Below are positions 37,890-52,938 of a stretch of 57,314 nucleotides of DNA, piece after piece. Source of the DNA: a virus; IMG/VR virus record IMGVR_UViG_3300042884_000922, positions 1 to 57,314 of that record, one strand, 5' to 3'. The stretch's first letter is position 1; each line of letters begins with the position of its first letter. The translations under genes were made by a program, and so were the position numbers. The notes beneath the pieces are model-generated. The model was not told the origin of the DNA. It saw only the letters and a program-made list of their open reading frames with translations, and ran no database searches.

Positions 37890-38810
37890 ATGAGTTATTA
37901 TTTTGAATTAGTTAAAGATTTGAATTCATCTATTGTGATCGTTGAACACAAAGACACATATAAATTTGTGACATGTAGCGATAAATATACTCCATCTAAA
38001 ATACGCAACGGGGAAAATTTAAGTGACGTTATACACTGCTATGATATAGTCAATGAGAAAATAATTGCAATACCTCTAGTTGAAATTATGCGTCATTATC
38101 ATCATGATATTGATAATATTGATGATAATGACGCAGAATATTTACGCAGAGCAAACATATTGCGTGATAAAATTAAAGGCTATGTCGTTGAAAATGTCAA
38201 TGTGTCATTTACTCAAATATATAATTCTTATGTTAAAACTATCTTTATAGATATCTACAATATTGAAAATACGTTGATTTTAGATTTTTTAAGCCGCACA
38301 AAATTTGCTTTAACACATAATGATTTTGTCTTGCCTGTAGTCCCTGAACATCGAAAACAAAGTGTTATCAATCTATGTAAATCGATAATATCATCTAAAT
38401 TAGATGATATATTATCTGAATTAAATACTATAAAGCAATCTAGTGACGACACTGAAGATATTGCAGACATTGATACAATTATACAAATGTATGAAGATAC
38501 TGTAAATGAAATTGACTATACAAGTTGTAAAAGTTTAATTGATTATTTTAATGTTTATCCTTCGCTATTATTGCCACGCCCAAAAGAAATAGATATATTA
38601 TTAGATGAATTTGGAAAAATATATAACCAAAGCGATGACTATGTTGATTTTATGAATATAGTTGACGATTTGTTGACATATAACGAAATGCGGGAATTAC
38701 TAGATGAATTAAATACTCTTCAACCAACATATAATCAAGAATCTAATGAAATGAATTTAACGAAGTTCAAAGAATATTTAAAGTATAAATTAAATAATGG
38801 ACATAAATGA
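37890..38810 (+). CDS. Unknown acidic protein, first gene of island unit 1
   Basis: I do not recognise this 306-aa protein. It is acidic and mostly helical. The first 60 residues look beta-rich (YYFELVKDLNSSIVIVEHKD). A His/Asp-rich patch follows (MRHYHHDIDNIDDNDAEY), which could bind metal. The C-terminal half is a run of amphipathic helices (ILSELNTIKQSSDDTEDIAD, FMNIVDDLLTYNEMRELLDE). It has no membrane segment or signal peptide. It directly follows the late promoter at 37877, and its end overlaps the first radical SAM gene by 14 bases. It might be a carrier or target for the modifying enzymes, but that is a guess from position only. Confidence 0.6.
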   Translation: MSYYFELVKDLNSSIVIVEHKDTYKFVTCSDKYTPSKIRNGENLSDVIHCYDIVNEKIIAIPLVEIMRHYHHDIDNIDDNDAEYLRRANILRDKIKGYVVENVNVSFTQIYNSYVKTIFIDIYNIENTLILDFLSRTKFALTHNDFVLPVVPEHRKQSVINLCKSIISSKLDDILSELNTIKQSSDDTEDIADIDTIIQMYEDTVNEIDYTSCKSLIDYFNVYPSLLLPRPKEIDILLDEFGKIYNQSDDYVDFMNIVDDLLTYNEMRELLDELNTLQPTYNQESNEMNLTKFKEYLKYKLNNGHK

Positions 38811-39828
38811 TTTTAGCGTACACTCTTTTGATGTTGACTATTCTACACCAAGAAATAACAGAGCAAAGCTAGACACAGGATTTCATTGCAATTATAAATG
38901 CGAATTTTGCTATTATCTGAATCATCTGCATCTCAAGACTTCGTTTGAAAAGATAAGAGAGCGAGTTGACTATATACGTGCATACGGCATAACCCAGATT
39001 GATCTTTCTGGTGGAGAAAGCTCTATACACAAAGACTGGTTCCAGATACTCGACTATTGCAACTCTAAATTTGAGCATATAAGCTGTCTTAGCAATGGAT
39101 CTGCATTTTCGAATGAAAAATTTTTAGTGCAGTCGAAACAACACGGACTAAAAGAGGTGTTGTTTAGTCTGCATGGCTATAACGAAGAAGTGCATGACTC
39201 TATAGTTGGTAAAGTTGGTGCATGGAAAAAGATACATTCTGCTATAGCTTATTGTAAAAAACACGATATACGAGTTCGAATAAACTGCACAGTCTATCAA
39301 AAAAACTATAGTGGTTTAGAGAGTTATGCAGAAGTTATAAAAAACATTGATCCATTTGAAGTTAACTTTTTAACACTCAATCATTGGGATGATTCGAGTA
39401 CATTTGAACCAATAGATGACTATGTCGCGCTTACTGACGCTATAAAGGGGTGTATTGATCTTATAAAGGATCAGATACGTCTAATTAATGTGCGCTACAC
39501 ACCTTATTGCTTTATGGTTGGTTATGAAAAGTATGTATGCAATCACTATCAGCACGTCTATGACATATATGATTGGAATAAAGAAATATATAACGAAACT
39601 TTAGATGTTTCTAAAACATATAATGACAAAGAAAAGATAGATTTAGGATATACTGCTGCGAAGGAAGAAAGATTGCGAACCTATAAAAAACCAATAGTGT
39701 GCATCCGTTGCAAATATTTTAATATATGTGATGGCATAGAAAAACAATCAAACGTAAAAGTATTGCCAGTTCGTGGTAAAAAAATAACTGACGTAAATTA
39801 CTATAGAAAAGATTTTTATGACATATAA
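38797..39828 (+). CDS. Radical SAM enzyme 1
   Basis: The protein is 343 aa. The [4Fe-4S] site is C31-N-Y-K-C35-E-F-C38, the standard CX3CX2C motif. The SAM-contact glycine motif is S71-G-G-E74-S, where the other copies mostly have GGEPT. Next comes FSLHGYNEEVHDSIVGKVG, close to radical SAM/SPASM peptide-modifying and sugar enzymes, and INCTVYQKN. The C-terminal CIRCKYFNICDGIE gives three Cys for an auxiliary cluster (shortened SPASM or twitch). Of the seven, this one is most like known SPASM-type enzymes. It overlaps its neighbours by 14 and 11 bases. The substrate is unknown. Confidence 0.85.
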   Translation: MDINDFSVHSFDVDYSTPRNNRAKLDTGFHCNYKCEFCYYLNHLHLKTSFEKIRERVDYIRAYGITQIDLSGGESSIHKDWFQILDYCNSKFEHISCLSNGSAFSNEKFLVQSKQHGLKEVLFSLHGYNEEVHDSIVGKVGAWKKIHSAIAYCKKHDIRVRINCTVYQKNYSGLESYAEVIKNIDPFEVNFLTLNHWDDSSTFEPIDDYVALTDAIKGCIDLIKDQIRLINVRYTPYCFMVGYEKYVCNHYQHVYDIYDWNKEIYNETLDVSKTYNDKEKIDLGYTAAKEERLRTYKKPIVCIRCKYFNICDGIEKQSNVKVLPVRGKKITDVNYYRKDFYDI

Positions 39829-40726
39829 TGGAGAAAATATTGTCAGTTGCGGAATAAAAAATTATAATTTTAAAACATTTACTTGGAAACTTATAGATGT
39901 ATGTAATCAGCAATGTTCGTATTGCAATGAAGGATTTGGGTCAGAACAATTTAGACCAAAATCTTCTTTTTTTAAAGACGAGAAACAACTTACATCATAT
40001 AAAAATGTTTTAAAGATTCTTAAGTTACGTTCTATCGGAAAATTTGAAGTGGATATTATAGGAGGAGAACCTACTTTGCATCCAAATATACACGATATAT
40101 TATTTAATATTAATTCTATAGAAAATTGTGAAGAAATAAGTTTACTAACTAATTTGAAAAAACCTTTTTCATTTTTTGAAAAATTTAATGATGAAAAATA
40201 TAATAAGCTATTATTTTGTCCATCAATTCACTTTGAATACTACACTCCAGAATTATTAGATAAATGCATTAAAATAAATAATTTTAAATATACTAAAATA
40301 ATCCCTATAGTTATGTTACATGATAATCCTAAGTATTGGGATAATATGGAAATTTTTATTAGCAAACTAATAGAATATAATGTAGAATATACTATATCAT
40401 TTATAAATTCGTGCTATGATTATATAGTAAATTATACTCCAGAATTCTATTCTAGATTTAATAAATTTTTTACTTATGATGATAACAAATATCTATTTAA
40501 TAATAAACTACTTCTTGATAAATATGATATACATTCCAATCAATTGATGAATTTTACGGGTTGGAGATGCAAACCTTGTCGTTATATTATAAAGCATACT
40601 GGAGAAATATCAAATGCATGTACCGGGAAATCATTTAGTTTTATTAATAATGATTCATTTATAACATGTGGTGTTGATAAATGTGGATGCAATATACAAT
40701 GGAACTATGAAAAATATAAACCATAA
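39818..40726 (+). CDS. Radical SAM enzyme 2
   Basis: The protein is 302 aa with C29-N-Q-Q-C33-S-Y-C36 and the GGEPT motif at 82-86. A SIHFEYY segment follows in the position where the other copies carry a similar Ser/Tyr-His motif. The C-terminus is Cys-rich (WRCKPCRYI, NACTGKS, CGVDKCGC), enough to hold one or two auxiliary iron-sulfur clusters. Low-complexity AT-rich codons are used (many AAT, ATA, TTA). The gene overlaps both neighbours. The substrate cannot be told from sequence. Confidence 0.85.
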   Translation: MTYNGENIVSCGIKNYNFKTFTWKLIDVCNQQCSYCNEGFGSEQFRPKSSFFKDEKQLTSYKNVLKILKLRSIGKFEVDIIGGEPTLHPNIHDILFNINSIENCEEISLLTNLKKPFSFFEKFNDEKYNKLLFCPSIHFEYYTPELLDKCIKINNFKYTKIIPIVMLHDNPKYWDNMEIFISKLIEYNVEYTISFINSCYDYIVNYTPEFYSRFNKFFTYDDNKYLFNNKLLLDKYDIHSNQLMNFTGWRCKPCRYIIKHTGEISNACTGKSFSFINNDSFITCGVDKCGCNIQWNYEKYKP

Positions 40727-41687
40727 GTTTCTTAGCTTAGATAATAGCTATGACTTGTATCTAACAATGACTTGGGTACATGACCACAATCATGGCATAT
40801 GTGGTCATGTCTATGAAATAATAGACTATTATCTTTTACTGAGTAAAAAATTTAAAGTAGGTATATTGATATGCGAAGATATGACATGGCAAATGTTTGA
40901 ATCTTGTATTCGATCAAAATACTCTCTTGATGAAAGCACTATTTGTTGCATAAAAAATGATATTACTTTTTGTAATCGACCAAAATGGGTACTTGGACTG
41001 GATACAAACATTTTGTTTGTTGATGGAGGTCTACTAAATTCAATTGCAGCGTTTGGCGTAAACTTGATGGTTAAAAATATATTTTCTTTTAAGTGTAATC
41101 CAGATGATACACACTACAATCTGCCTTATAAAAATATAACTCTATTGCAAGACAATCGTGTATATGATGATAAAGATTCTGAAACTGCAATACAATACAT
41201 AAAAAAGATAGGGTTTAGATACTATAAAGAATATGACTCCGTAAAAACAGATACAGCTCTGCTTTATTGCACTACAAATTGTAAAAAACTATGCAACGTT
41301 TCCATACTAGACATAGTTTTTGAATATGGTTTTAAAAACTATATGCTGCTCACAAATGACCGTGAACAGTATGCATCGTTGTCAAACAGTTTTAAGCAGA
41401 TAAGTTTTCCAACTATGCCTGTAGAAGATATTTTTCAAAAATTTGATAGCTACATCTATACTCCTACAGGAGGAGGTATTACAACTCGAAAGTTTGACTG
41501 CAGTCCACGATTTATAGTTGAATGTGCTCACTATGGAAAAAATGTCATCTATCATGCAATAGATCACGATTATTTAGAGATTGACCGTGGTTTAAAATGG
41601 AGAAGATATGATATAGAAAACAATCTTAAAGGTTTATATCTAGATGATTCTGATGAGCTTATAGATATACTATATGATCGGCTTTGA
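40707..41687 (+). CDS. Unassigned enzyme-like protein, possible glycosyltransferase
   Basis: The protein is 326 aa from ATG 40707, which overlaps the preceding gene by 20 bases. An in-frame ATG at 40668 would extend it further into that gene and is less likely. The N-terminal part (YDLYLTMTWVHDHNHGICGH, then VGILICEDMTW) and a C-terminal Gly-rich loop (YIYTPTGGGITTRKFDCSPR) followed by FIVECAHYGKNVIYHAID resemble the nucleotide-sugar-binding half of GT-B glycosyltransferases. I cannot name a family. Its place between radical SAM genes 2 and 3 fits a glycan pathway. Confidence 0.5.
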   Translation: MKNINHKFLSLDNSYDLYLTMTWVHDHNHGICGHVYEIIDYYLLLSKKFKVGILICEDMTWQMFESCIRSKYSLDESTICCIKNDITFCNRPKWVLGLDTNILFVDGGLLNSIAAFGVNLMVKNIFSFKCNPDDTHYNLPYKNITLLQDNRVYDDKDSETAIQYIKKIGFRYYKEYDSVKTDTALLYCTTNCKKLCNVSILDIVFEYGFKNYMLLTNDREQYASLSNSFKQISFPTMPVEDIFQKFDSYIYTPTGGGITTRKFDCSPRFIVECAHYGKNVIYHAIDHDYLEIDRGLKWRRYDIENNLKGLYLDDSDELIDILYDRL

Positions 41688-42696
41688 AAATAGAGTAACA
41701 TCATTTGAAATGATACCCCACTCAGAGTGGTTTGACTATGATTTAAAGGTTACATTAAAGCCTACATTTAAATGTAATCATAAATGTTGGTTTTGCACAG
41801 AATATGATAATTCTACAAAATCATGGACAAAAGAGCAGTGTGATCTGGTGCTCCAAAAATTAAAGGATATACCACAAAGCAAAAAGCGTATATTTTTTTA
41901 TTTTTATGGTGGTGAACCTACACTCAGTAAACATTGGGAATATCTAAACTATCGACTTGTTGAAATTTTCAAAGATCGCGAACTTTTTATACAAACACAA
42001 ACAAATCTTAGTCTCAAGGCAGAACGATTAGAGAGGTTTTTACAGCGCATAAACACTATAAAATCTGACTCACATAAGATTGATATTTGTAGTAGTTATC
42101 ACCTAAATAAACAGCGCGTGAATGAGTTTGTAGAAAAGATGCATATATGTGATCGCTACAACTCTTTAGGTTTTTGTTTTTTTAGTACTGAATTGTTGCA
42201 TAAAGAACAGACTTTACGAGAAATACAATCTATCATTGATGCGTATCCTTCTAAATTAAAGATGCGATTTACTGAAATATATAATCTACAATATAGAAAT
42301 ATTCCAGAATATGCCGAGTATTTAACGGATTCGTATTTACTTGGAGATGATCATGGTAAGAGTTTGGAATTTCGATATTGGCTAAAATATTATCCAGAAT
42401 TACGACAATATTTTGAAAAAGCATGGGACTTTAAAGTAAATGATCAGATTTTTAATTTTTCTGAAGTGTCTGCATACAATATTCATATGAAATTTAAGTT
42501 TATGAAATGTGAATGTGGAGTTAAAAATATGGTTATTGATCATAATTTAAAAGTATATCATTGTAACGATGATTTTTATAACAATAGAAATATTACGAAT
42601 CTATCAGACTTAAATTTAGAATGCTATTTAAATAAATCAGTTAGATGTCTAAATAATGCGTGTTATGATGGACTCGATCATAAAAAAATATTATGA
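41674..42696 (+). CDS. Radical SAM enzyme 3
   Basis: The protein is 340 aa. The cluster motif is C34-N-H-K-C38-W-F-C41, followed by FYFYGGEPTLSKHWEYL. The shared mid-domain motif reads ICSSYHLNKQRVNEF. The C-terminal region has further Cys (KCECGVKN, VYHCNDDF, RCLNNACYDG) that could bind an auxiliary cluster. The start overlaps the previous gene by 14 bases, and the stop overlaps the GT2 gene by four, suggesting translational coupling with that glycosyltransferase. Confidence 0.85.
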   Translation: MIGFENRVTSFEMIPHSEWFDYDLKVTLKPTFKCNHKCWFCTEYDNSTKSWTKEQCDLVLQKLKDIPQSKKRIFFYFYGGEPTLSKHWEYLNYRLVEIFKDRELFIQTQTNLSLKAERLERFLQRINTIKSDSHKIDICSSYHLNKQRVNEFVEKMHICDRYNSLGFCFFSTELLHKEQTLREIQSIIDAYPSKLKMRFTEIYNLQYRNIPEYAEYLTDSYLLGDDHGKSLEFRYWLKYYPELRQYFEKAWDFKVNDQIFNFSEVSAYNIHMKFKFMKCECGVKNMVIDHNLKVYHCNDDFYNNRNITNLSDLNLECYLNKSVRCLNNACYDGLDHKKIL

Positions 42697-43313
42697 TAAG
42701 TATATTGATACCAACTCATAGACGACCTCTTTTATTTAAACGGTGTATTAGTAGTGTACTAAATCAAATTACTGATATACAATATGAAATTTTAGTTAAT
42801 AATGATAGTCATGATATAGAAGAAATTTATGATGATAGAATTAATATTAAATATTTTTATAACAAATATTCAGATTTATCTTTAGTTTACAAATCCCTGT
42901 TTGATGCAGCAAAATATCCATATATTTTTTATCTAGAAGATGATGACTATATGCTTCCAAATTTTTTTACGCATATAGATTTTTCTGTTGACATAAATTT
43001 TTGTGAATATATAAGTTTACCTCATATTCAAGAAAATACTCAAATTGCATTATATCGTCAAAAAATTAATAGAAAATATGCACATTATATTAATGCTAAA
43101 AATTTTATAACCAATGCTAATATGGAATATTTTCAACTGTCGCAATTGTGTGCATTTAGGAAAAGTTTATTAAATGAATTTCCAACTGGTAATAATATCG
43201 AAAATGATTTGTTGCTTTTTAAGAATATAAGTAAAAATGCGTCATCTTTTAATTATATTCCTAAAAAATTATGGGTGCAAACTACACATGGAGGAGATAA
43301 TATTAGTTTTTAA
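42693..43313 (+). CDS. Family-2 glycosyltransferase
   Basis: The protein is 206 aa, a small GT-A-fold glycosyltransferase. The start (MISILIPTHRRPLLFKRCIS) is the family-2 signature. The acidic metal/nucleotide site is D83-D84-D85 (YLEDDDYMLPNF). FRKSLLNEF in the second half fits the acceptor part. It is shorter than most GT2 proteins and has no membrane segments, so it is probably a soluble enzyme adding a single sugar. It overlaps radical SAM gene 3 (ATGA). The donor and acceptor are unknown. Confidence 0.85.
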   Translation: MISILIPTHRRPLLFKRCISSVLNQITDIQYEILVNNDSHDIEEIYDDRINIKYFYNKYSDLSLVYKSLFDAAKYPYIFYLEDDDYMLPNFFTHIDFSVDINFCEYISLPHIQENTQIALYRQKINRKYAHYINAKNFITNANMEYFQLSQLCAFRKSLLNEFPTGNNIENDLLLFKNISKNASSFNYIPKKLWVQTTHGGDNISF

Positions 43314-43314
43314 T

Positions 43315-44274
43315 ATGGAATATATTGAACAATTTAGAATACCTAGTAAAGAACCAGCATCTGGTTCTTATGGTTTATCACATTCCTTTCGCCTGCACTG
43401 GGATATTAATACTATATGTGATAAAAATTGTTTTTATTGCTATGCACGTGAGCAATTAAAATGGAATGAACTGTCATCAAAACCAATATTAGATAATATA
43501 CTCGAACAGTTAAAAAATATCAATAAACCGTTAGAGGTTATTTTATTGGGTGGAGAACCATCAATGCATCCGTTATATTTCTATGTGTTGCGCGAATTAG
43601 AAAAAATTGATCATTTAAAATGTAGTGCTGTATTGAGTAATTGTGGCAAAACAGTAAACTATAAATGGATTGACCGTCATTCACAGTTTAAAAAGTTTTG
43701 GTTTAATTTTTCTTTTCATCCGTCTGAAACAAATGATCTCGATGATTATACGAGTAAAATATTATATGCAAAAAAACAAGGTTATAATGTACTCGTTCAC
43801 GTGTTATTAGTGGGTCATGCTTGGGACGAAAAAATTTCACATATAGTAAATTTCTGTCATGACAATAATATACACATGAAACCAAACGTGTTGTATACGC
43901 CAAAAGATAGTAGTGACTATCTAAATAAGTCTGAAAAATATAAGCAATGGATCTCTAAGTATAGTGATAAATTTGAGAAATATTTGTATTTCTCAAAAAA
44001 ACAATTGGAAAGAAATATTCCAGGAAATCAAACACTTCAAAATTTAATATTAGATAAAGACTATATTTTGTTAAATGATATAGACGTCTATCTAAATGAT
44101 TTAAATAAATTTAAAGGTTGGAAATGTTTACAGAATAATTATGTCGTTGAAGGTTCAAATAATGCAAAAATTATGAGAATGTGCGATAATACGCAAACTG
44201 GTGAATATATGATATGTCCGCTTGAACGCTGTATGTGTCAAGGATTACTTACTAATGAAAAATTTAAAATATAA
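43315..44274 (+). CDS. Radical SAM enzyme 4
   Basis: The protein is 319 aa from ATG 43315, one base after the GT2 stop. The frame is open upstream to 43237 but only inside the GT2 gene. The cluster motif is C35-D-K-N-C39-F-Y-C42 and the GGEPSMHP motif follows. The shared mid-domain motif is FNFSFHPSETNDLDDY. The C-terminus ends with CPLERCMCQG, a compact three-Cys set for an auxiliary cluster. It overlaps radical SAM gene 5 by 20 bases. Confidence 0.85.
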   Translation: MEYIEQFRIPSKEPASGSYGLSHSFRLHWDINTICDKNCFYCYAREQLKWNELSSKPILDNILEQLKNINKPLEVILLGGEPSMHPLYFYVLRELEKIDHLKCSAVLSNCGKTVNYKWIDRHSQFKKFWFNFSFHPSETNDLDDYTSKILYAKKQGYNVLVHVLLVGHAWDEKISHIVNFCHDNNIHMKPNVLYTPKDSSDYLNKSEKYKQWISKYSDKFEKYLYFSKKQLERNIPGNQTLQNLILDKDYILLNDIDVYLNDLNKFKGWKCLQNNYVVEGSNNAKIMRMCDNTQTGEYMICPLERCMCQGLLTNEKFKI

Positions 44275-45142
44275 TCAGATAGAAACTGATACATCTCGCT
44301 TTGGTTTTACTCTAGAAATACATCTAACTGAGATGTGTAATTATAATTGTTCATATTGTAATCTTCATAATATGAATAAATATTCGGTTATTGATTATGA
44401 TAAGTTATTTAGTATAAAATATCCACCAAATACTCGCGCTTTTATTTTAGGCGGAGAACCGACAATTGATAAAAATTTAATAGATTTAATTAAAAAATTA
44501 AATGAGTATAAAATATACAATATAGACATACAAACTAACCTTTCAACTAACATACATAAAATAGTTGAAAGGTTAGAAAAAAATAATTTAAATGTTAAAT
44601 TTTTCTCGTCATTTCATAATGAATTTGCAGACTTTAAATCATTTGTCGATAAAAATAAATTTTTAGTTGAATCAAATTATTATGGAGGCATTCATTATAT
44701 GTGGTCAAGAGCATTTGGAAAATTATCTTTAACTAGATTTAATATTTTAAATAAGTTATTTGATAATGTTTCGCTTGAACCATTATTGCCGCATTCATTT
44801 GATGAAGATGAATGGAATAAAAAAATAGAATTGCATGCATTTAACGAATTAAATTTAATGCATTTTAGTAAACGACTGTCTCCAATAATAGAAATAGATG
44901 GTGTTGAAATGAGCATTGGTGATGCTCTACTAAATAATTATGAAAGGGGATTACGCGGAATAAAGTGTAGTATTCCAAAATATGCAATAACGTTTTCAGT
45001 TACACAAAATAAATTTTTTAATTGTTGTTTTGATTTGGTTGCAAATAACGAATTCTCATATGATCAATGGAAAACTGGGGAGTGCAAATGCAAACATAAA
45101 ATGTGTTGTGCTGATATAGAATATCCTAAAATTCGAAAATAA
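44255..45142 (+). CDS. Radical SAM enzyme 5
   Basis: The protein is 295 aa from ATG 44255; an in-frame TTG at 44222 is less likely. The cluster motif is C28-N-Y-N-C32-S-Y-C35, then ILGGEPTIDKN, then the shared motif KFFSSFHNEFADFKSF. The C-terminal Cys set is KFFNCCFDLV and CKCKHKMCC. The stop and the next start share a base (TAATG). The Tyr-rich segment YYGGIHYMWSRAFGKL differs from the other copies. Confidence 0.85.
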   Translation: MKNLKYNQIETDTSRFGFTLEIHLTEMCNYNCSYCNLHNMNKYSVIDYDKLFSIKYPPNTRAFILGGEPTIDKNLIDLIKKLNEYKIYNIDIQTNLSTNIHKIVERLEKNNLNVKFFSSFHNEFADFKSFVDKNKFLVESNYYGGIHYMWSRAFGKLSLTRFNILNKLFDNVSLEPLLPHSFDEDEWNKKIELHAFNELNLMHFSKRLSPIIEIDGVEMSIGDALLNNYERGLRGIKCSIPKYAITFSVTQNKFFNCCFDLVANNEFSYDQWKTGECKCKHKMCCADIEYPKIRK

Positions 45143-46122
45143 TGTTTACGCATGATAAAATAACTAACATTGAAATAGACTTAATAGATGTTTGTAATCT
45201 ATCATGTCCAATGTGTTCTCGCAATGATTTTGTATCAAACCAAAATTTAAAAGGATGTGTTAAATATTTACCTCTTGAAAAAAACATAGAGATATTAGAT
45301 AGATTTGTCAATCTTAAACATATTTCATTTATAGGAATACGCTCAGAATCAACTCTATATAAAAATTTTATACCTTTTTTGAAATATATTAAAGGCAGAA
45401 ATATAACAGTTGATATAAGCACAAATGCAACTGCTAGATCTGATGATTGGTGGAAAGAATTGGGAGAAACATTAGATTCTAATGATAGCATTAAATTTGC
45501 AATTGATGGATCAACACAAGAAATTTACGAAAAGTATAGACGCGGAGGAAATTTAAATAATATATTAAATCATCATCATATAATCAAAGACAATTCGAAG
45601 TGTAAAAGAGTTTTGCAATTTGTCATGTTTTCTTATAATCAACATGATTTACAAAATATAATAAAATTAAAAAATGAATATCAATTTGATGATTTGTTAG
45701 TTATACCAGCATCATATACAATAGACAATCGCGAGGATACAATGTTAAAATCACCTACGTCATTAGATTATGATCCAACTGATTTTAGTCCGCCACGAAA
45801 AATTTATACTGTACATAAATTTTTAGAAAAATATATTAAAAAAAATAATACCAATCTAAAAATAGAATGCACATCATATAAAAATAATAGTTTGTTTATT
45901 AATCATATGGGAGGATATTCATTGTGTTGCCATCATAATGGCTATATGATTCGTGAAAAGACATTTCATGATAATCAAGACATGAACTTTATAAATAATG
46001 AACACATGACAAAAGTTATAAATGGTAAATATGATTTTTGCCGAATGTATTGCACAGATTTGTGTAAAAAATACATAAATTCTGTATCACACATAGATGG
46101 TATTTTAGTTGATACTATATAA
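45142..46122 (+). CDS. Radical SAM enzyme 6 (SPASM-like)
   Basis: The protein is 326 aa with C18-N-L-S-C22-P-M-C25 close to the N-terminus. It lacks the GGEPT motif and has FIGIRSESTLYKNF in that place, followed by DISTNATARSDD and FAIDGSTQEIYEKYRRGGN. The last two blocks are typical of SPASM-type radical SAM enzymes. The C-terminal Cys (GGYSLCCHHNGY, DFCRMYCTDLCKKY) fit a SPASM-type auxiliary cluster site. It therefore differs from the other six and may have another substrate. It ends the first island unit. Confidence 0.85.
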   Translation: MFTHDKITNIEIDLIDVCNLSCPMCSRNDFVSNQNLKGCVKYLPLEKNIEILDRFVNLKHISFIGIRSESTLYKNFIPFLKYIKGRNITVDISTNATARSDDWWKELGETLDSNDSIKFAIDGSTQEIYEKYRRGGNLNNILNHHHIIKDNSKCKRVLQFVMFSYNQHDLQNIIKLKNEYQFDDLLVIPASYTIDNREDTMLKSPTSLDYDPTDFSPPRKIYTVHKFLEKYIKKNNTNLKIECTSYKNNSLFINHMGGYSLCCHHNGYMIREKTFHDNQDMNFINNEHMTKVINGKYDFCRMYCTDLCKKYINSVSHIDGILVDTI

Positions 46123-46125
46123 ATA
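46118..46125 (+). promoter_or_regulatory. T4-type late promoter box for island unit 2
   Basis: A perfect TATAAATA overlaps the end of radical SAM gene 6 and ends 13 bases before ATG 46139. It would drive the second island unit up to 52905. Confidence 0.65.
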
Positions 46126-46138
46126 AAATATCATCCAT

Positions 46139-46750
46139 ATGATACAGAAGCAGAATATATTGAAAATATATAATCAATATTTAAAACCCAATTTTTGTTC
46201 TCCTTCCATAATTAAAGTTATAGAAGGAGACTGTATTATAATTTTTAAGAGTAATAATGTGTATTATTTGTTATACCTAGAATATGATATAAGTGAAGCA
46301 GTTCATCAATCTCTAAATAAAATATATTCAATTGCTAATAAAATATCTTTATTCCCAAAATTTAAATATAGTAAATCAACTGGATACGAATATTTTTATA
46401 TTTTTGAACTGCCATTTAAATCTAACTTTAAACAAGTTTCTGAAAAAAATATTTATAATATCAAAGATTTTTTAATTAAAAAAATTACGAGAAATAAAAA
46501 CTTACAATGTAGATACAGTGATAAAATTGAAAAATTTATACAAGAAACTGATAATTTTTATATAAGGTGGGACGAATTACCAAACTATGCTAGTTTTAAA
46601 CCTATTGACAGCAATGAAATATTTTATATTTTTGAAAAATTAGATTCTTCTCAAATATATGAAGACGAATTTAACAATTTATGTTTTATAGGTATTAATA
46701 GTATTCTTCCAGTTAAATATAAAATATCATTTAAACACATAAAAATTTAA
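46139..46750 (+). CDS. Unknown protein, first gene of island unit 2
   Basis: I do not recognise this 203-aa protein. It is Lys/Ile/Asn/Tyr-rich. The N-terminal half looks like alternating strands (IIKVIEGDCIIIFKSNNVYY, LLYLEYDISE, YEYFYIFELPF), in the style of a kinase-type or aminoglycoside-phosphotransferase N-lobe, but no catalytic motif follows. Like the first gene of unit 1, it precedes a radical SAM gene and is co-translated with it (TAATG overlap at 46750). A substrate-carrier role is a guess. Confidence 0.55.
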   Translation: MIQKQNILKIYNQYLKPNFCSPSIIKVIEGDCIIIFKSNNVYYLLYLEYDISEAVHQSLNKIYSIANKISLFPKFKYSKSTGYEYFYIFELPFKSNFKQVSEKNIYNIKDFLIKKITRNKNLQCRYSDKIEKFIQETDNFYIRWDELPNYASFKPIDSNEIFYIFEKLDSSQIYEDEFNNLCFIGINSILPVKYKISFKHIKI

Positions 46751-47838
46751 TGAATTATATTGCTACAAAATTAGAAAATATAAAATCAATAAGAGGAATT
46801 AATTCATTAGATCATTTTTCTATAGAAATCCAATCTACTACTCGGTGTAATTATAAATGTCATTATTGTACAGATTTAAGAATTAACGAAAATTATAATG
46901 TTATTTTTAATAAAGAGAACGTTAAAAATTTATTATTATCAATAAAAAAAATATTTAACAAAAAAATACATATTTTTATATATGGCGGTGAACCTACATT
47001 ATATCCAGATTTATTAAATTTAATAAATAGCATAACTGAAGTTTTAGAAAATGAAGACGTTATTTACATAGCATCAAATCTAAGTATTAGTGAAAAACGA
47101 TTAATAGAATTTTCAAATAATATAAAGCATAAAAAATATGTAAAATTTAGTGTTAGTTATCATAGTACTGAGTGTAAAGATTTAAAAAAATTAATTAATA
47201 AATGTTTATATCTTAAACAAAATAATTTGTTATTAGATATAAATGTAATGTATAATTCTAAAATCAATTCTTTAACTACATTTAATTTACTATGTTTGCT
47301 TTTTGGCAAACATATGTGTAATATAGAACCGCTTTTTAACAGTAGAATAGATCAAAGTATCGTAGACAATAATAACAGCCACTTAGAAATAGATTATATT
47401 CACGATAAGTTTAATATTGATCAATTAGAAAAATTAAGTAAATTTACATATTCAAAAAATATAATTTATTCTGATTATAATGATAATACTACATATATAA
47501 GTAGAGGAGAACTTTGGCACGACAGAAAAAATAATTTTTATGGAATGTCATGTGAAGTTTCTAAATGGAAATTACATATTGATTGGTATGGAGACACATA
47601 TAGTTGTTTTAATCAACAATTTTCAAATAATAAACCACTTTTTAATATTAATGAAACTGGGATTGATTATGAAACCATATTAAAAAATACTAAATGTATT
47701 GTTTGCCCTTTTAATATTTGTTTTCATGATATACATATTAAAAAAGAATTTACAAATGATTCTACAAAACCAATGATTCTCAATAGATTTTTCGGTACAA
47801 AACAATATAAGACTTCTAGGAAAACACATGTTACATGA
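46750..47838 (+). CDS. Radical SAM enzyme 7
   Basis: The protein is 362 aa with C33-N-Y-K-C37-H-Y-C40, then IFIYGGEPTLYPDL and the shared motif FSVSYHSTECKDLKKL. Two Cys-containing C-terminal blocks (GMSCEVSKW, then DTYSCFNQQ, and CIVCPFNICFHD) could hold an auxiliary cluster. The gene is among the most AT-rich in the window, with long AAT/ATA/TTA runs. It overlaps the transketolase N-half gene by 11 bases. Confidence 0.85.
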   Translation: MNYIATKLENIKSIRGINSLDHFSIEIQSTTRCNYKCHYCTDLRINENYNVIFNKENVKNLLLSIKKIFNKKIHIFIYGGEPTLYPDLLNLINSITEVLENEDVIYIASNLSISEKRLIEFSNNIKHKKYVKFSVSYHSTECKDLKKLINKCLYLKQNNLLLDINVMYNSKINSLTTFNLLCLLFGKHMCNIEPLFNSRIDQSIVDNNNSHLEIDYIHDKFNIDQLEKLSKFTYSKNIIYSDYNDNTTYISRGELWHDRKNNFYGMSCEVSKWKLHIDWYGDTYSCFNQQFSNNKPLFNINETGIDYETILKNTKCIVCPFNICFHDIHIKKEFTNDSTKPMILNRFFGTKQYKTSRKTHVT

Positions 47839-48505
47839 ACTAATTAATTTTTCTAAAGCCAATAGTTTATCACATATACCATCGGCTTTATCGATGCTTG
47901 ATTATATCAGCGTTTTATTTGAAAATAAACATATAGTTCCATTTAGAGATAAAATTGCGCTAGGAAAACCATTTGGTTCTCAAGCATATTATTTAGTATG
48001 GAAACATTGTGGTTATTTAGATAATATTGAAAATCTTTCAATTGGCGTAAAACACACTGAAATACCATTTGTTAATTTTAGTGAAGAGACTATGGGAAAC
48101 GCTTTAGGAGTTGCAGCAGGAATTGCGCATACCACATATAATAAAGTGTATGTCAACTTAAGTGATGCTGCTCTTCAAATGGGTTCAACTCTTGAAGCTA
48201 TTGCATATATTGGTGCAAAGCAATTAAAAAATATAGTAGTTACAGTTGATTTTAATCAAATGCAAGTTACTGGAAAAACTAATGATATAATTTGTATAAA
48301 ACCAATTTCAAATCTATTTAAAAACTATGGTTGGCAGGTGATTGATGTAGACGGACACGATAAAAACAAATTGCAGTTAGCATTTGATAACATTCATTCA
48401 AATAGAAATACACCATTAGTTTATTTTTGTCATACAATTAAAGGACATGGCATAGATTATATGGAGACTGATCCAATAACTTGGCATTATAAATTATTAG
48501 TATGA
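47828..48505 (+). CDS. Transketolase-like N-terminal (TPP-binding) subunit
   Basis: The protein is 225 aa and matches the pyrophosphate half of transketolase. ThDP/Mg-binding region: VNLSDAALQMGSTLEAIAY, then TVDFNQMQVTG (usual transketolase: GDG...N). The transketolase C-end signature KGHGIDYMETDPITWHYK is present. Standard N-domains are ~270-320 aa, so this is shortened. It pairs with the next gene, which supplies the pyrimidine half; together they would make an active ThDP enzyme. A likely reaction is moving or adding a two-carbon unit onto a sugar, or aldehyde ligation. The exact substrate is not visible. Confidence 0.8.
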   Translation: MLHELINFSKANSLSHIPSALSMLDYISVLFENKHIVPFRDKIALGKPFGSQAYYLVWKHCGYLDNIENLSIGVKHTEIPFVNFSEETMGNALGVAAGIAHTTYNKVYVNLSDAALQMGSTLEAIAYIGAKQLKNIVVTVDFNQMQVTGKTNDIICIKPISNLFKNYGWQVIDVDGHDKNKLQLAFDNIHSNRNTPLVYFCHTIKGHGIDYMETDPITWHYKLLV

Positions 48506-48981
48506 GAAATTCACTAGATAAATTTTTAAGTCGGTATGATAATCCCAACTTATATTTTATGCATGCTGATATGTGGAACTTTCCATTATTTAAAAATAAA
48601 TATCCACACCGCTGTATAAATGTTGGTGTACAGGAAACTAATATGATTAATATTGCTGCTGGTTTAGCGAGTCAGGGTAAAACAGTGATTGTCTACGGAG
48701 TAGCTGGATTTGTCTACCAGCGTGCATACGAACAGTTAAAATTTAGCGTAACACATTTTGGAAAGAGTGTTACGCTGGTAAATGCTGGAGCAAATGGATG
48801 TTATAATAAATGTGGAGCAGGTCATATTCCTGATGATGACTACACACTTATGGATGCATTAAAAATAAATAAATATGAACCTCAAACGCGTCGCGAATTT
48901 ATTCGTTGTTTAAAAGATTGTATAAGAAATAAACAAACTAACTTTATACGCTTAGGTTGGGATAATTGTGTATGGAAATAA
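48502..48981 (+). CDS. Transketolase-like pyrimidine-binding subunit
   Basis: The protein is 159 aa and corresponds only to the middle (Pyr) domain of transketolase. INVGVQETNMINIAAGLAS contains the Glu that activates thiamine, followed by GKTVIVYGVAGFVYQRAYEQ. The C-terminal third domain of normal transketolase is absent. Archaeal and biosynthetic two-gene transketolases are known, but their second subunit is usually ~310 aa. It overlaps the first half by four bases (ATGA), so equal amounts are expected. Confidence 0.8.
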   Translation: MRNSLDKFLSRYDNPNLYFMHADMWNFPLFKNKYPHRCINVGVQETNMINIAAGLASQGKTVIVYGVAGFVYQRAYEQLKFSVTHFGKSVTLVNAGANGCYNKCGAGHIPDDDYTLMDALKINKYEPQTRREFIRCLKDCIRNKQTNFIRLGWDNCVWK

Positions 48982-49547
48982 ATTTAGTAACTGGCTCTCG
49001 TGGTTTTTTATGTGGTCATTTGTGTAAGCATTTGCCTAATACTCTTGATTACGGAAATGTCTTGAATTATTATGATATCAATTATGTAGATGCGGTCTAT
49101 CATTTTGCTAGTCCAAGTGATGATTATGATTTTGCCGATTCTAATAAAACTATAGACACTATAGTAAATGGTACAATTAATATGCTAAAAGTTGCTCAAA
49201 AAAATAATGCGAAATTTATTTTTGCCAGTACGCTTGGAGTAGAATCCCCAAATAATGTGTATTGTTATAGTAAGTTATTGATGGAAAAATATATAATAGA
49301 TAACTATGATAACTATGTTATATTACGCGTTCCTCGTGTTTATGACAAGAGTCGTAAAAAGGGATTAATGAAAAAATTAAGATTGAATATGGTTCCACAA
49401 TCAGACAATAATAACACAGTTGACTATATTACACTAGATTCTTTTATTAATCAAACTCTTGCGGCGTCAAAGAATAAAAATATTGTGTATAGTTATATGA
49501 GTATGTCATCAAATACGATTGGAGAAATATATAAATTATTTGCATGA
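48972..49547 (+). CDS. Short SDR epimerase/dehydratase-like protein
   Basis: The protein is 191 aa from ATG 48972; TTG 48966 also lies in frame. It is a short-chain/extended SDR: NAD-binding loop VTGSRGFLCGH (G8, G11, G15), VYHFASPSDDYDF, and the catalytic Y97-C-Y-S-K101. Extended sugar epimerases are ~300 aa; this one ends soon after the Rossmann core, so much of the substrate domain is missing. It may pair with the next SDR gene. It overlaps the transketolase half by 10 bases. Confidence 0.8.
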   Translation: MEINLVTGSRGFLCGHLCKHLPNTLDYGNVLNYYDINYVDAVYHFASPSDDYDFADSNKTIDTIVNGTINMLKVAQKNNAKFIFASTLGVESPNNVYCYSKLLMEKYIIDNYDNYVILRVPRVYDKSRKKGLMKKLRLNMVPQSDNNNTVDYITLDSFINQTLAASKNKNIVYSYMSMSSNTIGEIYKLFA

Positions 49548-50398
49548 AAATTTTAATTACTGGTGGAGATGGTTTTATAGGCAAAAATCTTATAGAACAA
49601 TGGACAAGTTTTTATGACATTACTTCAATTGACAAATTGTCTGGTATTGATATTTTATCTGACTCGCCAGCATTAGAATATGCAATAATAAATTGTGATA
49701 TAATTTATCATTTAGCAAGTCCTGTTGGAATAAACTTAATAGATCGACACCAAGAATCGTTTTTAAATGATATGTTAAAAATAAATCTTAAGGTATTTAA
49801 CCTTGTAAAAAAATATGATAAAAAAATTGTATTTTTTAGCACGTCTGAAGTCTATAAAGATAATGTTGCAGCGTCTGAAAATGATGATTTAATAATTGGA
49901 AATCCAGAATATCCACGATGGGGTTATTCCAGCGGAAAATTAACATCAGAATTTTTATGTAAAAGTCTGTGTAAAAAATCAATTATAATTCGTCCATTTA
50001 ATATTTGTGGTAAATATGATAAAAAGGGAGTGCTGTACCAGTTTATCAAAAATATTAAAAATAATCTAAATGTTATTATTCATGGAGATGGTCATCAAAC
50101 TCGTTCTTTTTGTGATGTGCGAGACCTTATTGAATTTTTAAATATTATAAACCACTTAGATTTTTCTGGAGAAATATATAATATTGGAAATAGTAATAAT
50201 TTTATTTCTATGCATAATTTAGCTAAATTATGCATATCACTTGCCAATTCTAATGTTGAAATAGATTATGTAGATTATAAACACTGCTTTTCAGAAAAGC
50301 ATAGAGACATTTATAATAGACGTCCCAATTGCATGAAAATGAATGCTTTATATGTGCCAAAATATAATATTACTGATATAATACAAAATTTGTTATGA
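49544..50398 (+). CDS. NAD-dependent nucleotide-sugar epimerase/dehydratase
   Basis: The protein is 284 aa, a near full-length extended SDR. The start has ITGGDGFIGKN (G7-G8-D9-G10-F11-I12-G13), then FFSTSEVYKD, and catalytic Y128-S-S-G-K132 (WGYSSGKLTSE). IIRPFNICGKYDKKG and GDGHQTRSFCDVRD are the substrate-side motifs of UDP/GDP-sugar epimerases and dehydratases. It would change a nucleotide-sugar during glycan precursor synthesis. It overlaps both neighbours by four bases. Confidence 0.85.
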   Translation: MKILITGGDGFIGKNLIEQWTSFYDITSIDKLSGIDILSDSPALEYAIINCDIIYHLASPVGINLIDRHQESFLNDMLKINLKVFNLVKKYDKKIVFFSTSEVYKDNVAASENDDLIIGNPEYPRWGYSSGKLTSEFLCKSLCKKSIIIRPFNICGKYDKKGVLYQFIKNIKNNLNVIIHGDGHQTRSFCDVRDLIEFLNIINHLDFSGEIYNIGNSNNFISMHNLAKLCISLANSNVEIDYVDYKHCFSEKHRDIYNRRPNCMKMNALYVPKYNITDIIQNLL

Positions 50399-51042
50399 GA
50401 AAAATATTAATATTTGCTGCTCATCCTGATGATATTGAATTTGGAATGGGTGGAACTTTAGCAAAATTAACACAATCATATCATATTACCGTTTGTATTT
50501 TTTGCAAAGGGAATAAACCCGGGCGTGAGGATGTAGAAAATGATAGATTACGTGCATTTAATTTTAATAAAAAACAATTAAAAATAAATGAAGTTATACA
50601 ACATTCATATTCTGATGTTTCTCTTGACACAATTCCATTTATAGAAATATCATCCTTGTGTAAAAAAATAGTAGACGAAGTTAAACCGTCAATAGTATTT
50701 ACACAATATTCGGGGGATATACATCAGGATCATAGAATAGTTTCTCAAGCAACTAGAATCGCATGTCGTCCAAGAGAATCATGTAGCGTACATGAACTAT
50801 ACGAATATTCAATACCGGGAAGTACTGAATGGTCGTTTACTGATACAAAATTTAATACATTTTTTGATATTTCTAACTATACTAGTATAAAATATGAATG
50901 CATATCACGATATAAAACTGAAGTAAAAACTGAGATTGACCCGTTAAATTTAGAATATATAAAACACAGAGATCTTTATTATGGTGGATTGTTTGGATAT
51001 AGAGCAGCTGAACCGTTTATAAACATTTTTTCAAAGCGATGA
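50395..51042 (+). CDS. LmbE/PIG-L family N-deacetylase
   Basis: The protein is 215 aa with the LmbE zinc signature at 9-13 (AAHPDDIEFGMGGT; H10, D12, D13) and the second metal His at 110-113 (HQDH). Family members remove acetyl groups from GlcNAc-type or related amino sugars on lipid, thiol or antibiotic carriers. FCKGNKPGRED in the middle is also usual. In this cluster it would probably deacetylate an N-acetyl amino sugar. It overlaps both neighbours by four bases. Confidence 0.9.
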   Translation: MRKILIFAAHPDDIEFGMGGTLAKLTQSYHITVCIFCKGNKPGREDVENDRLRAFNFNKKQLKINEVIQHSYSDVSLDTIPFIEISSLCKKIVDEVKPSIVFTQYSGDIHQDHRIVSQATRIACRPRESCSVHELYEYSIPGSTEWSFTDTKFNTFFDISNYTSIKYECISRYKTEVKTEIDPLNLEYIKHRDLYYGGLFGYRAAEPFINIFSKR

Positions 51043-51761
51043 AAAAGCAAAAAATTATTATTGCTGGATATGGAGAAATAGGTCAAGCAATACACCAATT
51101 TTATAATCAGCATGATTATGAATTAAGTATAGTCGATATTGACGTATCATTATCTCAATGTCATTGCGACATCTTGCATATTTGTTTTCCATATTCTGAT
51201 AATTTTATAGTTGAAGTTGAAAAATATATTTCATTATTTTCTCCTCATCTCGTTATAATACACAGCACAATATATCCTGGAACATCAGAAAATATAAAGT
51301 TTAATAATTTAGTATACTCGCCAGTTGTTGGTGTACATCCACATCTTCATGAGTGCATAAAGATATTTAAAAAATTCGTTGCTGGAAAAACTAAGCAGTC
51401 GATCATTGAGGCGTGCAATCATTTTTCTGAACTTGGAATTGCATCTACCATGTTTAAATGCTGCAAATCGCTTGAAACCGCAAAGACTCTATGTACACTC
51501 TATTATGGTATGTGCATAGCTTTTCATGATGAAGTGCATGATTTATGTAAAAAAGAATCTATTGACTATTCAGAAGTAATGACTCTTTGGAATTCTGAAT
51601 ATAATTCTGGCTATAAAAAAATTGGAAAAGATAACGTAATACGACCAGTGCTGTCTCCAGCTCATGGAAAAATTGGAGGTCATTGCGTTATACCAAATGC
51701 CGAGATGATCGCTTCATATTTTAACAGTCCAATAATAGACTATGTTTTGAGATTAAAATGA
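51039..51761 (+). CDS. UDP-sugar dehydrogenase-like protein, C-terminally shortened
   Basis: The protein is 240 aa. The Rossmann start is IIIAGYGEIGQAI (G10, G12, G15), followed by ICFPYSDNF and VIIHSTIYPGTSEN, close to UDP-glucose/UDP-ManNAc dehydrogenases. Near the end, GKIGGHCVIPN has C216, at the place of the catalytic Cys of the family (GG-C-P motif). Normal enzymes are ~400-450 aa with a second UDP-binding domain, which is missing here. It may work with a partner or have a different substrate. Overlaps of four bases on both sides. Confidence 0.7.
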   Translation: MKKQKIIIAGYGEIGQAIHQFYNQHDYELSIVDIDVSLSQCHCDILHICFPYSDNFIVEVEKYISLFSPHLVIIHSTIYPGTSENIKFNNLVYSPVVGVHPHLHECIKIFKKFVAGKTKQSIIEACNHFSELGIASTMFKCCKSLETAKTLCTLYYGMCIAFHDEVHDLCKKESIDYSEVMTLWNSEYNSGYKKIGKDNVIRPVLSPAHGKIGGHCVIPNAEMIASYFNSPIIDYVLRLK

Positions 51762-52288
51762 AACCGACTCTAATGATACATGAATTTCAAGAAAGGTATC
51801 TTGATCTTCCGTTAGAAAAATATACACTTACGTTTGACGATGGGTTGTATAGTCAATATGCATTCGTCGACGAGTTGTTGAGAATAAACACAGAAAAGAT
51901 ATTTTTTATTAGCAGTGATATAGTCTGTCCTGAAGATCAGACACAAGACACATCTTTAGTTTGTTGTAGAGATGCTCATGAAAAGGCATTCGTTGGAGAC
52001 TATAGCAACTATATGAAATGGTCACAAATAGCGCATATAGATGGACTGGATCAATGTCAGATAGGATGTCATGGACATAAACATATTCATAATATAGTTT
52101 CTGATCCTTTAGTGATGCTTAAAGACAGTCGAAGAATGGTGCAAACATTTAATTGTCATTTGGGTTATGTTCCAGATGGTTTTTGCTTTCCATATAATAT
52201 AGAGTCTCTTATATATAAAACAATACTACAAAAGTATGGGTTTAAGCATTTTTATGGAGGTGAGAGAATAGATATAGATGAATTATGA
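51758..52288 (+). CDS. Polysaccharide deacetylase-like (NodB family) protein
   Basis: The protein is 176 aa. NodB motif 1 is T25-F-D27-D28-G29 and motif 2 is C104-H105-G-H107-K-H109, giving the Asp-His-His metal site. FCFPYNIESL matches motif 3 in shortened form. The protein is smaller than usual (~200-250 aa), so the C-terminal motifs may be partly missing. It would remove N-acetyl groups from a polysaccharide or glycan. Two different deacetylase families (this and LmbE) in one unit suggest more than one acetylated site or carrier. Confidence 0.8.
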   Translation: MKPTLMIHEFQERYLDLPLEKYTLTFDDGLYSQYAFVDELLRINTEKIFFISSDIVCPEDQTQDTSLVCCRDAHEKAFVGDYSNYMKWSQIAHIDGLDQCQIGCHGHKHIHNIVSDPLVMLKDSRRMVQTFNCHLGYVPDGFCFPYNIESLIYKTILQKYGFKHFYGGERIDIDEL

Positions 52289-52905
52289 ATATAGATGCAA
52301 TTACAGTATCGATAGACTATAGCGACTATCTTGAACAGATAGTTAGCAACAAAGATAAATTTGATCGTTGGCTTATAGTTACGCACTGGAGTGATAAAAA
52401 GACCATAGAAGTGTGCAAAAACCACAATTTAGAATATATTCTAAGCAAAGAAATCTATGCAAACGGGTCGTGTTTTGCAAAGAGTCGCGCGATCAATGAA
52501 GCTATACATTACCTCAATCCTCAAGATTGGTTGTGTGTTGTCGATAGCGATTCATTGTTACCAAATGATTTTAGAACTGTTGTCGACTCCGGTGTAAATG
52601 ATAAAGAAGCCATATATGGTTGCATAAGATATACTGTAGAAGGTGTTAAAAAAGTTGAAAATTTTGATGGTTCATATGTCTATCCTGCTGGGTTTTTTCA
52701 ATTATGGCATACGTCTAAATTTTGTGACTATTATACAGGAGAAATGACTAATGCCGAAGGTGATATTCAACACAAAAATAGGTTTGAAAAGTCTCAACTT
52801 TTACCATTAAAACTTGTTGACCTTCAAAAAGAAACGGGATTTAAACAAAATTGGTATGGTCGTGGGCCAATAGGCAAAACCCGGCATAAACTTTATAGAT
52901 TATAA
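52285..52905 (+). CDS. Small GT-A-fold glycosyltransferase-like protein
   Basis: The protein is 206 aa. The core YANGSCFAKSRAINEAI and LCVVDSDSLLPNDF (D87-S-D89) match a glycosyltransferase-like GT-A fold with the DxD metal site. The start (MNIDAITVSIDYSDYLEQI) has the usual first strand. No membrane segment is seen. It is the last gene of the second island unit, and its stop overlaps the first TATAAATA box upstream of the second tail fibre gene. The donor and acceptor are unknown. Confidence 0.75.
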   Translation: MNIDAITVSIDYSDYLEQIVSNKDKFDRWLIVTHWSDKKTIEVCKNHNLEYILSKEIYANGSCFAKSRAINEAIHYLNPQDWLCVVDSDSLLPNDFRTVVDSGVNDKEAIYGCIRYTVEGVKKVENFDGSYVYPAGFFQLWHTSKFCDYYTGEMTNAEGDIQHKNRFEKSQLLPLKLVDLQKETGFKQNWYGRGPIGKTRHKLYRL

Positions 52906-52938
52906 ATACATATAAATACATATAGATACATATAATAT
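52901..52938 (+). promoter_or_regulatory. Tandem late promoter boxes at 10-base spacing
   Basis: TATAAATACA is repeated at 52901 and 52911, followed by the variants TATAGATACA (52921) and TATAATATAT (52931), directly before ATG 52939. This gives two perfect and two near-perfect TATAAATA boxes, one helical turn apart. Confidence 0.65.

Follow-up and report, generated by a model that had tools for sequence, protein, structure and literature searches.

The viral record IMGVR_UViG_3300042884_000922, analysed here over its positions 1 to 57,314 and called the window below, is probably a fragment. Between 37890 and 52905 it carries a dense island of genes for radical S-adenosylmethionine (SAM) enzymes, glycosyltransferases and sugar-type enzymes, which follows a tail fibre gene and a small protein that we call fibreB. 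Relatives of one island enzyme, g2, recur in other viral contigs, mostly in the company of a fibre-like gene and a partner gene. We propose that the island may serve the late, cytosolic decoration of a virion adhesin, with fibreB as the likeliest target, an account that in our judgement has about an even chance of being correct.

Gene content of the island

The island comprises 19 open reading frames (ORFs) on the same strand, where the first-pass annotation had counted 18 genes in the same dense array. Sixteen of the 18 junctions overlap, and a 16-base gap at 46123-46138 splits the island into unit 1 with nine genes and unit 2 with ten. The genes and their flanks are as follows.

33128-37252, + strand: fibre A, tail fibre of the left flank, 1374 amino acids (aa), with a C-terminal Peptidase_S74 chaperone (Pfam PF13884, E 2e-16; PHROG tail fibre families)
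37254-37865, + strand: fibreB, 203 aa, putative virion/adhesin protein and proposed target (position and composition)
37890-38810, + strand: g1, partner of fibreB, 306 aa, beta then helical (AlphaFold pLDDT 81)
38797-39828, + strand: g2, radical SAM enzyme, apparently phage-specific, core of the class (PF04055, E 1.7e-16)
39818-40726, + strand: g3, radical SAM protein (PF04055)
40707-41687, + strand: g4, GT-B glycosyltransferase, second core gene (predicted fold; phrog_24441; no Pfam match)
41674-42696, + strand: g5, radical SAM protein (PF04055)
42693-43313, + strand: g6, GT2 glycosyltransferase (PF00535, E 1.6e-10)
43315-44274, + strand: g7, radical SAM protein (PF04055, E 1.3e-8)
44255-45142, + strand: g8, radical SAM protein under the Pfam cut-off (26.3 v 29.5 bits; CxxxCxxC present)
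45142-46122, + strand: g9, radical SAM protein (PF04055, E 5e-12)
46139-46750, + strand: g10, 203-aa protein (no Pfam or PHROG match)
46750-47838, + strand: g11, radical SAM protein (PF04055, E 4e-10)
47828-48505, + strand: g12, short N-terminal half of a split transketolase (PF00456)
48502-48981, + strand: g13, pyrimidine-binding transketolase half (PF02779; no C-terminal domain match)
48972-49547, + strand: g14, short-chain dehydrogenase/reductase (SDR), short, about 190 aa (PF01370)
49544-50398, + strand: g15, SDR of the NDP-sugar epimerase/dehydratase type (PF01370, E 7e-32)
50395-51042, + strand: g16, PIG-L de-N-acetylase (PF02585, E 5e-19)
51039-51761, + strand: g17, short UDP-sugar-dehydrogenase-like protein (PF00984, E 7e-5, just under the cut-off; no C-terminal domain match)
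51758-52288, + strand: g18, NodB-type polysaccharide deacetylase (PF01522; phrog_26430)
52285-52905, + strand: g19, GT2-like glycosyltransferase (PF13704, E 2.5e-4, below the cut-off)
52939-57314, + strand: right flank, structural protein, incomplete at the window end (phrog_697 structural, phrog_3018 head decoration)

The GC content of the island is 0.280, compared with 0.394 in the left flank, 0.438 in the right flank and 0.383 in the rest of the window, which agrees with its description as more AT-rich than both sides. The island had also been placed exactly between two tail fibre genes. This holds on the left, with the 1374-aa fibre and the 203-aa protein; the gene on the right, for which no Pfam match was found, is structural and not clearly a fibre.

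Seven radical SAM enzymes had been announced, and all seven proteins carry CxxxCxxC, six of them with PF04055 above the curated cut-off (g8 lies under it). Each of the seven has at least three cysteines in its last 75 residues. A SPASM model was not matched in these proteins in Pfam, and matches of g3, g5, g8, g9 and g11 to the twitch family NF033640 are weak and all far below cut-off. As an identity for g2, viperin was rejected at 60.7 bits against a curated cut-off of 180, with only a partial match to pVip in PADLOC (E 5e-21); other defence-system readings likewise gave partial matches only. The likeness of g2 to viperin (pVip) could mislead automatic annotation, and its resemblance to heme synthase (ahbD) is perhaps the source of some viral ‘ahbD’ calls.

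The split transketolase, the two SDRs and the two deacetylases (PIG-L and NodB-type) that had been annotated all score above Pfam cut-offs, and the UDP-sugar-dehydrogenase-like protein scores just under. The annotated glycosyltransferases are likewise present: g6 as a GT2 enzyme above cut-off, g19 below it and g4 by predicted structure. The predicted model of g4 aligns with PimA (4n9w) at a VIA-align Z of 14.3 and an rmsd of 3.6 Å over 258 of 325 residues; in this model two Rossmann-like domains can be superposed on GT-B enzymes, which assigns g4 to the GT-B glycosyltransferases. Its best-scoring structural neighbours include enzymes that glycosylate lipids, small molecules and proteins, and the fold therefore leaves the acceptor of g4 open.

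The transketolase halves have 225 and 159 residues and no third domain. The first, g12, aligns to the split transketolase 6yak and retains part of the cofactor-binding stretch. The dehydrogenase-like g17 has 240 residues without a C-terminal domain match. GxxGxxx and YxxxK in g14 are presumably the SDR motifs, and we take HPDD in g16 to be that of PIG-L. Because several of these enzymes are short (the transketolase halves, g17 and g14), some substrates of the island may be other than ordinary nucleotide sugars. Judged by hydropathy only, at a Kyte-Doolittle (KD) value of 1.6 over 19 residues, a membrane segment was found neither in the 19 island proteins nor in fibreB.

Late-promoter boxes

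Boxes resembling the T4-type late promoter precede both units and the right flank gene.

37877-37884, + strand: TATAAATT, a match to the T4-type late box in 7 of 8 letters, before unit 1
46118-46125, + strand: exact late box TATAAATA before unit 2, overlapping the end of g9
52901-52918, + strand: two TATAAATA boxes before the right flank gene

The claim that each unit is led by a late box thus stands for unit 2 and is weaker for unit 1, where one letter differs. A further exact TATAAATA ends 6 nt ahead of the fibre A start. With 10 TATAAATA sites found against 11.9 expected, the window shows no excess of the box; the placement of the sites is non-random, with six of the ten lying 0-30 nt before a start where 1.2% is expected (p 6.5e-10). 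The window thus has TATAAATA where a T4-type late promoter would be expected, shortly upstream of gene starts. Among the relatives, all six sites of G001, two of four in G002 and both sites of G006 stand before starts, and placement was not significant in G003, G004, G005, L028, L032, L034 and two Campylobacter phage stretches. From this placement late expression of the island is likely.

In the window and G001 together, 10 of 12 boxes end 4-8 bases before the start codon (window 16921, 25838, 33114 and similar). The T4-type late promoter box is located at -13 to -6. If the boxes are T4-type late promoters, such gaps would place the transcript start on the start codon or directly beside it, giving nearly leaderless late mRNAs.

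Related islands in viral contigs

Used as a single query, g2 retrieved six viral contigs; an alignment of g2 retrieved 46 loci, 44 of them strong and two weak. Near-copies (L030, L040, L046, L047, L051, L055 and L066), recognised by near-identical gene strings, and the weak partial L065 were dropped, which left 38 dereplicated loci; L053, L054 and L056 look related and were retained. Without the Campylobacter phages L059, L060 and L063 the set comprises 35 contigs. Loci extend at most 10 kb to either side of g2, and absences at their far ends are not informative. The scans of viral contigs and cell genomes rely on short peptide patterns (two for the genome scan with g2), by which diverged relatives can be missed. 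A protein was called fibre-like if it lay at most seven genes upstream of g2 and either had an S74-type motif or matched the family model of F9 or of fibreB.

By this definition 31 of the 35 contigs have a fibre-like protein, 22 by F9 or the motif and nine by kinship to fibreB; four have neither (L034, L042, L048 and L056), although L034, counted as non-fibre-like, does carry a relative of fibre A. In 32 of the 35 a g4-family gene is no more than three genes away from g2, and a partner gene is present in 33 (g1 in 12, the F5 family in 21). In independent scans, relatives of g1 were found on eight viral contigs, all with g2, and relatives of fibreB also on eight, seven with g2 and the eighth stopping directly after the gene; g5 relatives occur on ten, every one a g2 contig. 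A single-sequence scan of viral contigs with g9 confirmed none.

The recurrent order is fibre-like protein, partner, g4 and g2, variable radical SAM enzymes and glycosyltransferases, TktN, TktC, SDR, SDR, PIG-L and deacetylase. Among all 38 loci, TktN occurs in 19, GT2 in 23, a tryptophan-halogenase-like gene in eight, a DegT-type gene in eight and an ADI-family gene in five; sister islands thus include a DegT-type aminotransferase; a cytidylyltransferase and a weak match to arginine deiminase/amidinotransferase were also seen in them. G004 retains only g2, g4, g5, one further gene, g18 and g19 in its enzyme part, and no match to g3 was found there. Outside the module of fibreB, g1 and enzymes, nothing in G003-G005 matched structural proteins of the window; it is therefore the small fibre-like protein with its partner, not the large fibre genes, to which the link is conserved. 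In the 35 contigs, 484 ORFs were surveyed, starting with the third before g2 and ending with the twelfth behind it; seven of them reach KD 1.8, and these include, judged by first residues, one SDR and one deacetylase.

Two side observations concern gene content. The halogenase-like gene, at L044:18640-19917 (PF04820, E 4e-67) and in seven other loci, has relatives in cyanophages, Pelagibacter phage HTVC008M and Campylobacter phages. At L016:1-320 (G001), g3 consists of its first 32 and last 39 residues only, a natural internal deletion of a radical SAM gene.

The linkage bears on two other explanations. If the enzymes boosted the infected host through its small-molecule or cofactor metabolism, the fibre linkage would be incidental. 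Metabolic boosting of the host has been proposed for the radical SAM genes of Campylobacter phages (Timms et al., PMC2853527), in which the related genes are scattered, and in NCBIfam g2 matches, among others, heme and MoaA families, every one of them far below cut-off. A fibre-like gene in 31 and a partner in 33 of 35 contigs, the presence of glycosyltransferases and deacetylases and the expected late expression speak against this explanation, which we regard as improbable. The enzymes might instead hypermodify the DNA of the phage, given that phage glycosyltransferases often act on DNA (PMC12619734). Since no thymidylate/cytidylate-modifying or nucleotide kinase family is among the Pfam and NCBIfam matches of the island, and given the fibre linkage and the probable late timing, we consider this highly improbable.

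Sister islands with cysteine repeats

In many relatives the slot of fibreB and g1 is taken by the F9 family, whose members have a variable N-terminal part, a cysteine array of CTCNCNY copies or a CxCN variant, and mostly an S74-like end. The array is present in 17 of 18 dereplicated members and a Peptidase_S74-like end, by a loose pattern, in 12 of 18; the one member checked in Pfam matched Peptidase_S74 at E 1.4e-5. Fibre-like proteins with the CTCNCNY heptad are exemplified by

L062, 6945-7643
L036, 5972-6730
L013, 6813-7601

A scan for two tandem CTCNCNY repeats retrieved 27 contigs, and all 27 records hold 3-16 radical SAM genes. These records are not independent (about 18 groups by our reading), and the background of radical SAM genes in random contigs was not measured beside this count; a yardstick is given by the g2 relatives in 16, and the gp6 relatives in 2,402, of 50,697 phage records. 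An ORF with radical SAM motifs lies at most five genes from the repeat in 22 of 26 stretches, a count that misses L082, L084, L091 and L093 (L082 and L091 are shorter than 2.5 kb) and excludes L097, which has no ORF with the motif. In L086, L092, L094, L095 and L101 no g2 is in view. The string CTCNCNY was found in none of the open-licence PMC papers searched.

This link is the strongest hint that radical SAM enzymes of the class act on virion polypeptides. A repeat precursor beside a maturase is the layout of ribosomally synthesized and post-translationally modified peptides (RiPPs), and the sister islands with CTCNCNY have it in form, chemistry aside. Rather doubtfully, we suggest that the islands may be a viral post-translational modification system for receptor-binding proteins, RiPP-like on the variable CTCNCNY proteins and with the same g4-g2 machinery acting on fibreB. 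The receptor-binding proteins would then bear radical SAM and sugar modifications, and phage adhesin chemistry would extend past the 20 amino acids. The hint is not directly transferable to the window, which has no cysteine array (CxCxCxxCxC) in six frames and a fibreB with one cysteine.

Exchange between phages

DNA of the window aligns with that of G002 at 38264-42696 (74%) and 49549-52918 (82%), and elsewhere in short patches only. The nine enzymes common to both are 61-98% identical, compared with 47% for fibreB and g1 and 39% for a large flanking protein. Likewise, g2 of G001 is 86% identical to that of the window, whereas six flanking proteins show 31-47% and the relatives of gp6 and gp8 show 43% and 34%. 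As the enzymes are far more alike than other genes, the enzyme block has moved between phages after those genes diverged, and fibreB and g1 diverge at the pace of structural genes between the window and G002. In G002 different genes take the place of the island middle (g6-g14); by eye, one is amidinotransferase-like and one a truncated aminotransferase. A hot spot of recent exchange with G002 lies at 51039-52288, where g17 is 98% and g18 90% identical; the other seven shared enzymes have 61-84%.

Among 84,980 cell genomes scanned with the g2 alignment there was one partial match of 26%. Among 50,697 phage records, 16 contain a relative of g2; Campylobacter phages account for 15 of them and are the only source of full-length relatives. 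With 44 strong viral loci against one weak cell match, g2 is unlike a borrowed host surface-polysaccharide gene. This matters for the possibility that the island remodels the host surface, altering lipopolysaccharide (LPS) or capsule late in infection, blocking other phages and keeping progeny off debris; the fibre linkage would then reflect co-inheritance of an adhesin and a receptor change. The enzyme types of the island are suggestive of such a role, as are its variable middle between conserved ends and, in sister islands, the aminotransferase, cytidylyltransferase and deiminase/amidinotransferase match mentioned above. The pelagimyophage host recognition cluster also holds LPS genes, for which O-chain modification was proposed (PMC7029224). 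The hydropathy survey gave no indication that the island encodes a flippase, polymerase or membrane transferase, and it found few segments in the class, although host export could serve; the near absence of g2 from cell genomes and the ties of the partner genes to the fibre-like gene also argue against host-surface remodelling. On balance we think it the foremost alternative to virion decoration, possible but rather unlikely.

Genomic context

The left part of the 57,314-base record carries T4-type baseplate genes (tail tube cap, wedge subunits, hub/lysozyme). The wedge protein that we take to be gp6-like is nearest to phages of Methylophilales (34%), followed by Pelagibacter phages and cyanophages; relatives of gp6 were found in 2,402 of the 50,697 phage records. 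Neither g1 nor fibreB was matched among these named phage records, nor did fibreB have a match in Pfam or PHROG. Foldseek searches of PDB and BFVD with the predicted fold of g1 gave nothing at E 0.001, an unmatched fold being no proof of novelty. Megablast of 36-54 kb against named phages gave no match, and no tRNA genes were found in the window.

Two further observations concern the baseplate genes. A 13.8-kb contig, L121 (IMGVR_UViG_3300042397_003862), encodes a protein 100% identical to residues 1-612 of the gp6-like protein; this short, near-identical contig was the sole match in a scan of viral contigs with gp6 for near relatives. The hub/lysozyme is split over two window genes, 12952-14040 and 14059-15159, which match positions 16-181 and 312-575 of one profile.

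Proposed function

We propose that the island is an exchangeable, late-expressed adhesin-decoration cassette. The cytosolic SDRs, the short dehydrogenase, the split transketolase, the two deacetylases and the radical SAM enzymes would build or rework an unusual sugar-type group, which g4, g6 and g19 would transfer to a virion protein made at the same time, ahead of tail assembly. The likeliest acceptor would be fibreB (37254-37865), held by its partner g1. We infer all four of the elements of this proposal, namely the glycan-like product, a virion protein as target, fibreB as that protein and the late timing. We rank virion decoration over remodelling of the host surface because g2 is nearly confined to phages and common to Campylobacter and metagenomic phages. 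Further grounds are that the partners accompany a fibre-like gene and that the island showed no membrane component. Not one of these grounds is decisive.

The first-pass annotation had suggested an unusual sugar, or modification of fibre or capsid, in late infection. The linkage to fibre-like genes, the occurrence of g1 only with g2 and the lack of a membrane segment favour this; the scattering in Campylobacter phages does not, and the timing comes from the boxes only. Recurrence next to fibre genes, which it had named as a check for the whole gene set, is seen for a fibre-like gene in 31 of 35 metagenomic relatives, and the scattering in Campylobacter phages is in part what it had itself named as counting against the idea.

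Several points weigh against decoration of a virion adhesin. Nine of the 31 fibre-like contigs rest on kinship to fibreB alone, and fibreB is taken for a virion protein from position and composition only. L042 and L048 have g2 without a fibre-like gene, a partner or an adjacent g4. Profile comparison found no homology of F5 with g1 or of F9 with fibreB, and the two pairs of fibre-like protein and partner are therefore alike by position only. With one cysteine in fibreB, the cysteine-repeat chemistry of the sister islands cannot be its own. Surface polysaccharide loci typically contain SDRs, deacetylases, UDP-glucose-dehydrogenase (UGDH)-like and GT2 enzymes, and swapping of the island middle also fits O-antigen-like diversification. 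The Campylobacter phages, in which the genes are scattered over the genome and g2 does not adjoin an annotated fibre gene, speak for a looser link. For pelagimyophages the authors favoured host O-chain modification for the glycosyltransferases of the cluster (PMC7029224).

Viral radical SAM genes have so far been read as metabolic and host-boosting, and the g2/g4 islands offer a testable reading as adhesin-tied chemistry. The defined gene set of g2, g4, partner and fibre-like protein can be searched for in isolates, and cultured Campylobacter phages with relatives of g2, g4 and F5 are a possible first test system.

Comparison with known systems

In the gtr clusters of temperate phages, glycosyltransferases change the host surface, and some of these clusters lie near receptor-binding genes. 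Serotype conversion by gtr uses the membrane flippase GtrA and the bactoprenol transferase GtrB. The window island differs from these, since none of its proteins has a hydrophobic segment that reaches KD 1.6.

Glycans on capsid and tail-tube proteins of mycobacteriophages, as related in PMC12619734, are a precedent for virion glycosylation; these phages are unrelated to the window phage, and the passage on them mentions no radical SAM enzymes. In pelagimyophages, radical SAM cassettes were described in 2020 in some host recognition clusters, a hypervariable region of the structural module with tail fibres and glycosyltransferases, which lies between the VrlC and gp14 genes (PMC7029224). In the text available to us from that paper, no g2-g4 core, fibre partner or block of transketolase, SDR and deacetylase is named, and tblastn of g2, g4, g5, g9 and g12 against the 50,697 phage records returned no Pelagibacter phage, the metagenomic genomes of that paper lying outside the comparison. 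A Baltic Sea study counted 261 viral ‘ahbD’ genes and regarded conclusions about what they do as rather speculative (PMC9301287).

The closest likeness is to the Campylobacter group II phages (CP220 and CPt10; Eucampyvirinae, Firehammervirus), which like the window are T4-like with many radical SAM genes. For CP220 and CPt10, 11 and 12 radical SAM proteins were published in 2010, together with a swappable cluster that contains five of them (PMC2853527). Thus seven radical SAM enzymes in one phage operon are unusual, as had been remarked, but not new. IBB_35 has six radical SAM genes together with deacetylase, LmbE-like and UGDH genes, for which degradation of surface polysaccharide was proposed (PMC3322345), and CC_R7 has five (PMC12398825). 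One or more Campylobacter phages carry relatives of g2, g4, g5, g9, g12, g15, g16 and g18, with identities of about 25-49% overall, 46-49% for g2 and about 32% for g9 (9 places in 3 records). SDR, PIG-L and deacetylase stand in CPT_0162-0164 in the order of the window, without g17 between them, and radical SAM genes accompanied by sugar-transferase-type proteins lie about 3 kb from a baseplate lysozyme gene. In CP220 (FN667788.1, 11829-17450) an F5-family protein adjoins the annotated base plate hub subunit and is followed by a radical SAM, a sugar-dehydrogenase-like and a second radical SAM gene. The module of these phages combines multiple radical SAM genes with a putative glycine amidinotransferase, to which the window island gave no match; of the five ADI-family genes in the class, one gave a weak Pfam match (E 0.0044).

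We found no account of g2/g4 islands with fibre partners in the open-licence PMC literature. A phage cluster rich in radical SAM genes is already known from the systems above, and what is new here is the g2-g4 core, the linkage to a fibre partner and the link to cysteine repeats.

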